A stretch of DNA of 26,707 bases from Methanomicrobia archaeon (lineage in GTDB: Archaea > Methanobacteriota_B > Thermococci > Methanofastidiosales > NM3), in assembly GCA_030603445.1 (NCBI GenBank), contig JAUVXU010000018.1, positions 1 to 26,707 of the forward strand, written 5' to 3'. The translations under genes were made by a program, and so were the position numbers. Below the pieces are notes generated by a model that worked only from the letters and a program-made list of their open reading frames with translations, did no database searches and was not told where the DNA came from. This document shows positions 14,876 through 18,119 of this stretch, piece after piece (position 1 is the stretch's first letter; each line of letters opens with the position of its first letter).

Positions 14876-14996
14876 ATCTTTCGTACTATACAGTGGCTAT
14901 TAAACTTTTTCCAAAAGAAAATGATATTTTTAATATTCTTATCAATATCAAGAAATATTTATTAAGACGTAGGTGCATTAATATCGGGTGAAAAAA

Positions 14997-16142
14997 ATGG
15001 TTTCTAAAAAACAAAAGAGTGTAATAGCACTTTTTTTTGTAATTATCTTATTATTGGCAGGTCTCCCTTTTCTCATATGGAGCTTCAAAGATTCACAAAC
15101 ATTTAATGTTATCGTGTTGGACAACACCGTACCTGATAATTCATATAGGGAGCACAAAGGGCTGTTTTGGATACTTAACAGCCAAAAATATGTGCATGAG
15201 ACTGAAGGGATGTATGATGCTAGCATGGACTACTACGGATTTTTTCCTTTTCCGGATTATAAGTATGAGATAAGAAAACTACCAGATACTATTGAGAATA
15301 CGGACCTCATATACATTGCAGATACGTACGGGGTGTATGAAGAGGAATTCTATGGTGAGAATCCAGAAGGGCTGCGCTCCGAAATAATATATGGTGGCCT
15401 AAAGTCCGAGGAGCTCGATAAGATAGAAGCAGCGGTGCGTAATGGTGTATCTCTTGTGGCAGAATTCAATACTTTTGGAAGCCCTACCGCAGGCGATGTG
15501 AGAGAAAGGCTCTACGATATTTTACACGTCGAATGGACTGGATGGATAGGCAGGTATTTTTTAGACTTGACAAGAGGAGTAGAAGTCCCACTTTGGGCTG
15601 TTATGAACTACGAGGCACAACATGGTGTGGAATGGGATTTCCATGGCCCGGGAATCCTATTTGCAGACGAGAATGACCAGATAGTTGTGCTCTTAGAAGG
15701 GGAAGGGGTTACAAGCGACAACTGCAAAATAGAGTTTACAACAATCGGCAAGGAGTTCTTTAACATTAGCGAAAAAGTCCAATATAACTATTGGTTTGAT
15801 ATAATCACCCTCGATGAAGAATGTGAACCATATGCCCTATTCTCTCTTGCACTAACTGAGGAAGGAAAAGAACAGTTGAGTTTATATGATATTCCTCAAG
15901 AATTCCCTGCTGTTGTCAAATATTGTGGCAATGATTATCTCTCATACTACTTTGCAGGGGACTTCGTCGACATAGACACCATACCAAAATATTATCAATA
16001 CTATGGATATGACGCGTTCCAGGCTCTCATCACGGGCGACACAGGGTCCTATGAGAACAGAGGCTTTTACTGGAAGTTTTATGTCCCCATGGTAAAGACC
16101 ATACTTAAAGAAGTATATGTAGAAAAATTGGACAACGTGTAA
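14997..16142 (+). CDS. Membrane-anchored extracellular protein of unknown function
   Basis: This 381-residue protein begins with a positive N-terminus and one hydrophobic helix (about residues 8-29, VIALFFVIILLLAGLPFLIW). The rest is soluble and lies outside the cell. The body has few gaps and many aromatic residues, with blocks such as LVAEFNTFGSPT, EWTGWIGRYF, YNYWFDI and YYFAGD. I recall similar uncharacterised proteins in bacteria, but I cannot give a family name. The early part (TDLIYIADTYGVY, then GVSLVAEFN) resembles a Rossmann-like or amidotransferase-like fold. ATG 14997 is chosen because GGGTGA lies at the right distance; the GTG at 14988 overlaps that site. The stop directly abuts the stop of the next, convergent gene. 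Confidence 0.8.
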   Translation: MVSKKQKSVIALFFVIILLLAGLPFLIWSFKDSQTFNVIVLDNTVPDNSYREHKGLFWILNSQKYVHETEGMYDASMDYYGFFPFPDYKYEIRKLPDTIENTDLIYIADTYGVYEEEFYGENPEGLRSEIIYGGLKSEELDKIEAAVRNGVSLVAEFNTFGSPTAGDVRERLYDILHVEWTGWIGRYFLDLTRGVEVPLWAVMNYEAQHGVEWDFHGPGILFADENDQIVVLLEGEGVTSDNCKIEFTTIGKEFFNISEKVQYNYWFDIITLDEECEPYALFSLALTEEGKEQLSLYDIPQEFPAVVKYCGNDYLSYYFAGDFVDIDTIPKYYQYYGYDAFQALITGDTGSYENRGFYWKFYVPMVKTILKEVYVEKLDNV

Positions 16143-16598
16143 TTACTTTTTGTCCTTTGTGCATTTGAGCAATGAGTGAAGATCCTCCTCATAAGAGGAG
16201 AGAATATGTATCCCAGAGTAAAGTATCTCCAACCCTAGCATCGCCCTTTCATAGATGTGTTCATTTACGTACTTCTCCTTTGGGGACATCTCCTTGGAGA
16301 TGTTTTGTATTACTTCCTCATGTTTTCGATTAAGCAGTCGCTTCAAGCGGAAGTACCTGTTTTCATTCATATCATAATTTTCATTTTTGGTTATTTTGGT
16401 ATAAGTTACAAGGGATTCACCATAGTAATACTTATACAATTTTAGAAGTTCATCATAGAATATAACTTCGCTTATCATGGAGGCTTCCTCATCCTTGACC
16501 TTAAATGATAAAATAAGCTTGTCACGTATTGAGATTATATTGTTTCTTTTTTCCAGAAAAACACTAAATCCCATGTCCGATGTTTCATAAAGCGTCAT
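16143..16598 (-). CDS. Unknown 151-residue protein
   Basis: No family is recognised. The product is charged and mostly helical, with a Tyr-rich segment (LLKLYKYYYGESLVTYTKIT) and a Lys/Arg/Glu-rich second half (FRLKRLLNRKHEEVIQNISK). No membrane helix or signal is visible, so it is probably cytoplasmic. A GGGGGTAT ribosome site lies just before the ATG, which supports both the gene and its start. It converges on the secreted-protein gene with no base between the two stop codons. The YegP-fusion gene lies upstream on the same strand, 85 nt away, and could be co-transcribed. Confidence 0.75.
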   Translation of the reverse strand: MTLYETSDMGFSVFLEKRNNIISIRDKLILSFKVKDEEASMISEVIFYDELLKLYKYYYGESLVTYTKITKNENYDMNENRYFRLKRLLNRKHEEVIQNISKEMSPKEKYVNEHIYERAMLGLEILYSGIHILSSYEEDLHSLLKCTKDKK

Positions 16599-16683
16599 TT
16601 GGATACCCCCAAATTATTAATTAAACTTCCTTGACTCTGCATGCATCCAATAAATAATTAATGCCATTACTAATAGAAATATA

Positions 16684-17388
16684 TCAGGTTAATTCGCTCA
16701 CTTTCGCTATAATGGCATTTCTCTTAATGCTATCAATACCCTTTAAGCACGATGCCTTTGATGCGTAAGCCTGGCTGGATGCTATGATCTCCCCGTTAGG
16801 TGCTTTCAATCTGAATCTAAATTTGTCCTTAGAGTCGCGATATACCTCAAATTTAGGATATTTTACCCTATCTTTTCCTACGCCATGTTTTTGTTCGACA
16901 TGCTTGATGCCTAAATCAGTTATCTGCAGTTTCGATAAATATGGGCCCTTTAGCTTTATTAAAAATCCATTATATTTTAATCCTTCCAGAATAAATGATG
17001 CATCACTGCTGCTAATTCCCATCATGGAAATAAGCTTTTCCTCCGGAACGAAGTGTAGATTGCCTAATACGTATTCTTCATGTAAAATATCAAGTGCCTT
17101 TTGATTAAAAAAGCGATATAATTCACGCTCATTGGACATCTCAACATCCCCGCCGTTTATGGCATTGATGCCTTTCTTGCATAATTTTAGAAGAAATGAT
17201 GGCCCCGTTCCTTCTTCCTTTTGAACATATCCTTTACGCTCCAATTCAGTAGCAAATGGATGTATTTCATCAAGTGGCATGCCTAATCGCACGCACAATT
17301 CGCTTGAAGGCACGAAGTGAAGGGCGTCCTTATCATAATATTCATTCAGAATAGATAATATTTTCACATAAACGTCTTGGCTGGACAA
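16684..17388 (-). CDS. Tandem winged-helix protein fused to a YegP/DUF1508 domain
   Basis: This 234-residue protein has three parts. Two related winged-helix repeats come first: about 8-76 (ILNEYYDKDALHFVPSSEL, then LERKGYVQKE) and about 98-170 (ILHEEYVLGNLHFVPEEKL, then LKYNGFLIKL). The shared 'LHFVP' and similar ends show they arose by duplication. A YegP/DUF1508 domain follows (about 178-226: KFEVYRDSKDKFRFRLKAPN, then GEIIASSQAYASKASCLKGI). YegP domains are small beta-rich modules of unknown role, often in tandem. The start is TTG 17388, fixed by a perfect GGAGGT six nt upstream. It probably binds nucleic acid through the N-terminal part; that is inference from fold. Confidence 0.85.
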   Translation of the reverse strand: MSSQDVYVKILSILNEYYDKDALHFVPSSELCVRLGMPLDEIHPFATELERKGYVQKEEGTGPSFLLKLCKKGINAINGGDVEMSNERELYRFFNQKALDILHEEYVLGNLHFVPEEKLISMMGISSSDASFILEGLKYNGFLIKLKGPYLSKLQITDLGIKHVEQKHGVGKDRVKYPKFEVYRDSKDKFRFRLKAPNGEIIASSQAYASKASCLKGIDSIKRNAIIAKVSELT

Positions 17389-17479: not shown

Positions 17480-17575
17480 TTATAAGCCGTTTGGAGCACC
17501 ATAAATAAAGAAGACGCTTTGCTCGTGTTCTTTTACTAATACTACTTCTACGGGCAAAAATAGACATCTATTCAT
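17480..17575 (-). CDS. Possible 31-residue small protein
   Basis: An ATG-to-TAA frame encodes 31 residues, including LPVEVVLVKEHEQSVFFIYG. It stands out because its composition is protein-like and its sequence is richer in GC than its flanks. A TATA-like stretch (17582-17600) lies about 20-25 nt before the ATG, as for a leaderless gene. It sits between the candidate ncRNA and the YegP-fusion gene, all on one strand. It may be a real small gene, a remnant of a lost gene, or chance. Confidence 0.3.
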   Translation of the reverse strand: MNRCLFLPVEVVLVKEHEQSVFFIYGAPNGL

Positions 17576-17626
17576 TGTAAATTAAATATATTATATTATA
17601 GAACCATATGTTAATGCCATCCTAAT

Positions 17627-17840
17627 AAAAAAGTGAGCCAGCACCTCCAACAGAGTTGGATTCGAAGGTGTTTGTTCAGTACATTCACCTTTTCTTTTCA
17701 GGCACTGACTCGTGCAACAGTTCCCCACTTCCTCTCTTTCGAGACTGGCAGTTTTTTACATTTCTGCTCATGAAACACATATGATCGACGCTCCAGAATC
17801 AGTACAAGCCTGTTCTTTCACTCCCATATGCCGTTGCTAA
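17627..17840 (-). ncRNA. Candidate structured non-coding RNA, unassigned
   Basis: A block of about 215 nt, richer in GC than its very AT-rich flanks, has no convincing reading frame but much pairing on the minus strand. In transcript order there are: CATATG 17830-17825 pairing with 17783-17778 around a hairpin AGAACAG/CTG-A-TTCT (17816-17795); TCTC-GAAA-GAGA (17744-17733), a GNRA tetraloop; GCAC/GTGC (17715-17702); AAGGTG/CACCTT (17691-17686 with 17670-17665); and TCCAAC/GTTGGA (17660-17646). CACCT near 17670 can instead pair with AGGTG at 17646-17642, so two 3' structures exclude each other. A T-run (17632-17627) ends it. A TATA box at 17861-17870 fits a start near 17840. I found no match to RNase P, SRP or tRNA signatures. 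Confidence 0.55.
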
Positions 17841-17860
17841 AAGTACATATACTGGCAGAG

Positions 17861-17870
17861 TATAAATAGT
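17861..17870 (-). promoter_or_regulatory. TATA box for the candidate ncRNA
   Basis: On the minus strand this reads ACTATTTATA, preceded by an A-rich BRE-like stretch, about 25 nt before the first structured bases near 17840. A second TATA-like site slightly upstream (about 17878-17888) would start the RNA near 17858 and include a GCCAG that can pair with CTGGC at 17641-17637. Confidence 0.45.
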
Positions 17871-18119
17871 TTTCTTGACATAAATATTAGATATTTTTGT
17901 GTATCCGACCTACAAATAACCATATACATGTAAACTTATAGATTTCCCTCTAAAACCCATATGTCTATAATATCTAAATATACCAATAATTTGTTATGGC
18001 CCATAAATAATGTGATAACAATAATTTAATTTTTGATATAACTACCCATTATTTTTTTACATTTTGAATATTATTTTTTCTAACAATACCATAAGCAAAA
18101 AATAAACAGTGCAGATGCC
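17871..18119. other. AT-rich gene-free stretch
   Basis: I see no gene or RNA here. A minus-strand T-run (A-run at 18097-18102 on the plus strand) just beyond the stop of the 71-residue gene is a probable terminator for it. The rest is AT-rich without recognisable structure. Confidence 0.5.

Follow-up and report, generated by a model that had tools for sequence, protein, structure and literature searches.

The GC-richer block at positions 17627 to 17837 on the minus strand of the window (the whole 26,707-nt stretch of DNA, from an uncultured methanogenic archaeon, analysed here) is probably the gene for a free-standing, multi-copy and trans-acting structured RNA of ~210 nt, the founding member of its family. 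This RNA would be transcribed from its own TATA promoter, with transcription starting at helix P1 and ending at a U-run, and it would work as the scaffold of a ribonucleoprotein with L7Ae. The features of the block are as follows.

17627..17837 (-), RNA gene spanning ~211 nt between the first base of P1 and the last of the U-run; the matches of covariance models R1 and R2 (see below) cover 17624-17842
17861..17866 (-), TATA-like box TTTATA in the context AAAACTATTTATA, putative own promoter of the RNA, 29 nt upstream of the first helix in the window copy
17627..17632 (-), U6 run, probable termination site as judged from the sequence
17714..17837 (-), predicted 5′ domain, closed by P1 (17837-17832 with 17719-17714)
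17778..17830 (-), P2 (17830-17825 with 17783-17778), predicted kink-turn and P3; P2 and P3 covary
17816-17795 (-), P3 hairpin within the kink-turn arm
17823-17822 (-), GA of the predicted kink-turn, opposed by a 3-nt bulge (17789-17787) and then GA (17786-17785); sequence signature
17760..17776 (-), P4 hairpin, variable in sequence and weak in the window copy, yet forming a hairpin in all aligned homologues
17725..17751 (-), P5, with a YUG/YRR lower stem and an upper stem with the invariant GAAA cap (17740-17737)
17635..17711 (-), predicted 3′ domain, a three-way junction closed by the 11-bp P6 (17711-17701 with 17645-17635)
17665..17691 (-), P7 hairpin with the loop ACUGA (17680-17676), with covariation in both its inner and its outer stem
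17646..17660 (-), P8 hairpin, 100% of cells paired

An earlier note on this DNA had described a GC-richer block in AT-rich surroundings, and indeed the GC content of the RNA block was ~0.38-0.50 as compared to ~0.12-0.33 in the adjoining non-coding DNA. The minus-strand TCTC-GAAA-GAGA hairpin, the TATA box (TTTATA, 17866-17861) and the closing T-run (six U at 17632-17627) reported there were likewise present. The energy of the window copy folded on its own was within chance (z = -0.92 for the minus strand and -0.86 for the plus strand) and, since it is not unusual, the case for an RNA rests on the comparison of homologues.

When the genome that contains the window (G000) and 60 relatives were searched at the DNA level, a second G000 copy was found (c2, at G000:C31:55852-56132) that is 92% identical to the window copy (c1). 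The homology between the two spans ~17584 to 17935 of the window with 90% identity overall, including the promoter and some flank. In addition, a 19-bp exact promoter match in the related genome G001 and a 78% match in the related genome G002 were both found to precede divergent homologues, the exact match leading to the copy G001a. Covariance model R1, built from the two G000 copies and the G001 and G002 homologues, found seven further homologues with E-values from 1e-34 to 1e-15. G003 contributed three of these, including a partial one at the start of a contig, G001 a tandem pair, and G002 and G004 one each. Model R2, with nine sequences and 53 pairs, returned the same eleven places. Altogether, there are 11 copies in five genomes from three genera of one archaeal family, with one to three copies per genome and two to three in four of the five. 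R2 found nothing beyond the eleven loci in 115 genomes of the class and phylum, nor, with stricter filters, in 396 relatives from 216 genera, where the 391 other genomes were empty. Weak R1 matches in sister families of the order (up to 16.5 bits) reached at best 9.7 bits with R2 and were dropped, and no viral contigs carrying the RNA were found. The RNA family has thus been seen so far in only one archaeal family, which includes methanogens; an MCR alpha gene is present in G000.

The copy G003b (L053 371-657) gave a 287-nt match with enlarged P3 and P4 regions, showing that these arms tolerate insertions. In some genomes, the copies may belong to two paralogous types, A (the window copies, G001a, G002a, G003a and G004a) and B (G001b, G001c and G002b). 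We tentatively suggest that each type could have its own partner, within a new class of housekeeping RNP RNA, confined to one archaeal family, whose 5′ domain would be organised by a kink-turn and whose 3′ domain would offer the ACUGA loop for recognition. The two B-type copies in G001 lie ~930 bases apart (L061 10072-10305 and 11001-11236), with a flavodoxin-like gene, recognised by eye, on the other strand between them.

Nine full copies were aligned by hand, and each letter was compared with the loci. In this alignment 445 of 466 pair cells (95.5%) were kept, and 94% were kept on a model-made alignment. Double (compensatory) changes were observed in 28 of the 53 pairs, which provided the covariation among homologues that had been set beforehand as a check. 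When the letters within columns of the model-made alignment were shuffled among sequences (500 shuffles), the means were 80% and 20, and values of 94% or 28 never occurred; sliding the partners by 1-3 columns lowered the pairing to 37-51%. In a tree-aware null, for which parsimony changes were re-thrown along a FastTree tree in 500 replicates, the maxima were 73% and 18, a somewhat generous contrast as the alignment was not re-optimised in the null. Six pairs were individually significant under this null (E < 0.05), a small number that can be attributed to the presence of only ~five independent lineages; alignment and structure were, moreover, derived from the same sequences. The pair-preserving changes over family-level distances indicate selection on the structure, and by this comparison the block almost certainly encodes a conserved structured RNA.

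No reading frame was open in all copies, and a protein-coding function of the block was thereby rejected. On the minus-strand reading, the aligned pair cells contained 48 G-U as opposed to 9 A-C combinations, so that 95.5% of the cells are paired on the minus strand versus 87.1% on the plus strand. This asymmetry agrees with the choice of the minus strand as the RNA strand in the earlier note. In 7 of 10 copies, TTTATA precedes the first P1 base by 28-30 nt, while the other three, all of the B type, carry the related CTTAAATA at about the same distance upstream of P1; an own promoter at a fixed distance is what marks a free-standing non-coding RNA. From this near-constant TATA distance, we infer that the transcript starts at P1 or within a few bases of it. 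At the other end of the window copy, AC and then six U directly follow P6. Just downstream of the RNA, a GC-richer islet contains a 31-codon frame, MNRCLFLPVEVVLVKEHEQSVFFIYGAPNGL (17483-17575, minus strand), of which no relative was found in seven other genomes.

Comparison of the copies shows that the 5′ and 3′ domains of the predicted structure are closed independently of each other. By the same comparison, the predicted 5′ domain is a four-way junction with a kink-turn sequence signature in one arm. Pairs 1-4 of P1 change on both sides, with substitutions such as GC for CG and CG for UA, and pairs 1-5 are kept in 9/9 sequences; for P5, pair-level E-values of 0.002 and 9e-5 were obtained. 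The signature of the putative kink-turn consists of two invariant GA dinucleotides and a bulge of always 3 nt in 9/9 sequences, although the third bulge base, C in all copies, counts against it.

The comparison further shows the predicted 3′ domain as a three-way junction that displays an ACUGA loop with almost no variation. P6 has seven pairs with changes on both sides, and its first pair is absent in the three B-type copies. The inner stem of P7 occurs as UGU/ACA, CGU/ACG or UAU/AUA, and its loop reads ACUGA in 8 of the 9 aligned sequences; G003a has AAUGU instead and also misses the last P6 pair. A kissing contact of the P3 loop (UCAGU in G001b, G001c and G004a) with the ACUGA loop, seen by eye, was rejected as it is absent in c1, c2, G001a and G003a. 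A scan of all column stacks returned almost only the model helices and no convincing covarying contact outside the model.

The genes beside the RNA in the window (14988-17388) encode a 384-aa and a 151-aa protein, both without a Pfam match, and one protein with a C-terminal DUF1508. In G003 the association of the first two genes with copies of the RNA persists, as does that of the second gene in G001: the ortholog of 16143-16598 adjoins G001a and lies ~3 kb from G003c, while that of 14988-16142 is located just downstream of G003b (orthology by eye in both G003 cases). Since some copies share neighbours and others differ, one locus appears to be old and the others additional. Farther away in the window of this methanogen genome, 538-2058 (minus strand) encodes a large sensor-kinase-like protein with PAS and histidine kinase regions recognised by eye. 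Downstream of the RNA there is an RNase III-like gene at G001a, the DUF1508 protein gene ~240 nt away in the window and a phosphoglycerate-mutase-like gene ~480 nt away at c2. No downstream gene is common to all copies, and the conserved position of a riboswitch was thus not found. Together with the own promoter and terminator and the one to three copies per genome, this makes action in trans the better reading, and we consider it likely that the RNA is its own transcript acting in trans.

A cis-acting, riboswitch-like leader controlling the next gene would agree with the succession of P1, kink-turn arm, P4 and P5, a layout that resembles SAM-I, and with the gene starts located ~40-90 nt from the 3′ end of the RNA in G001 and G004. 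However, the genes that follow differ from copy to copy, the U-run comes directly after P6 in the window copy, and no member gave a SAM-clan or other Rfam match even at E 2-5, which renders such a leader unlikely. The earlier note had favoured a stand-alone small RNA, perhaps with a sensing or regulatory role, built on mutually exclusive 3′ hairpins. In agreement with it, CACCU (in 17670-17665) is complementary both to AAGGUG (17691-17686) and to an AGGUG further 3′, such that P7b could alternate between P7a and the 3′ strand of P8/P6, and both complementarities exist in the window copy, c2 and G004a. Yet the rival P7b:P8b/P6b pairing reaches six pairs in only these three of nine sequences, with no more than four in the remaining six, the loss of P7a costs 6-12 kcal/mol, and P7 and P6 are each conserved through double changes. 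The mutually exclusive hairpins were consequently not upheld, the rival pairing not being conserved and P7 being kept by pair-preserving changes. The stand-alone nature of the RNA was supported, whereas switching and cis-acting sensing did not, the latter because a sensor in cis is at odds with the lack of a common downstream gene. Of all readings considered here, a switching RNA is the most improbable.

The kink-turn signature could also belong to a modification guide RNA of the H/ACA or C/D type that recruits L7Ae, and the P7 loop contains a CUGA that resembles a D box. Nevertheless, no H/ACA or C/D match was obtained in Rfam, and inspection of the alignment showed neither a conserved ACA/ANA box where one is usually located behind P6 nor a pseudouridylation pocket in the conserved structure. 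A conserved C box (RUGAUGA) was not found either; the CUGA has no C box as pairing partner and lies outside the kink-turn. A guide function is therefore improbable, and to the same degree we doubt that the block is a passive or selfish repeat that multiplies together with its promoter without performing any task in the cell. Such an element would be consistent with four of five genomes having two to three copies and with the G000 copies sharing flanks beyond the promoter, but selection on the structure and the position near orthologous genes in two genera speak against it, as does the lack of a transposase recognisable by eye among the neighbouring frames.

With regard to the favoured ribonucleoprotein scaffold, L7Ae-family genes are present, and in combination with the invariant kink-turn signature they make an L7Ae RNP likely; we thus consider it reasonably probable that the RNA is bound by L7Ae. 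L7Ae would bind the predicted kink-turn and help the 5′ domain to fold. The conserved unpaired parts could then be the places at which a partner, protein or RNA, docks or is recognised, the candidates being the GAAA tetraloop, the GRRR(Y) purine strand joining P5 to P1, the A-rich UKAAAA strand joining P6 to P7, and the ACUGA loop, although for this loop a role as recognition site is rather doubtful.

The window matched nothing in Rfam 15, and eight loci likewise stayed without a match up to E 2, while a relaxed search gave chance matches to unrelated families only (best E 3.3). The Infernal/Rfam scan proposed in the earlier note thus left the RNA unassigned. It represents a new RNA family, matching none catalogued in Rfam; the novelty lies in the family, as there are precedents for free-standing orphan RNAs as such. 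Conserved free-standing RNAs without a known family are uncommon in archaea. An RNA that three genera maintain in one to three copies, and that has an own promoter together with a probable L7Ae site, suggests the existence of an undescribed RNP. Since the RNA is missing from the sister families of the order, one may ask what takes its place there, or which role it has in this lineage only. With a covariance model and eleven loci at hand, the RNA is directly testable in metatranscriptomes.

Among known systems, archaeal RNase P RNA is free-standing, L7Ae-associated and ~200-320 nt long. The window RNA is also free-standing and of similar size but multi-copy; it gave no covariance match to RF00373, and the genome's own RNase P RNA is located at G000:C5. 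Archaeal SRP RNA is a free-standing structured RNA as well, with a different architecture; there was no covariance match to RF01857, and the SRP RNA of this genome is found at G000:C41. The view that the block is neither RNase P nor SRP RNA was thereby borne out. The SAM-I riboswitch has a P1-closed four-way junction with a kink-turn arm. Its apparent likeness to the window RNA is one of layout only, and it gave no Infernal match; unlike SAM-I, the window RNA has an extra 3′ domain and no common downstream gene. The Hgc RNAs of Thermococcales and OLE-type orphan RNAs, to which the window RNA has no covariance-model match in Rfam 15, are likewise structured, free-standing and of unclear role, and OLE RNA needs a kink-turn for protein binding (PMC9723947).
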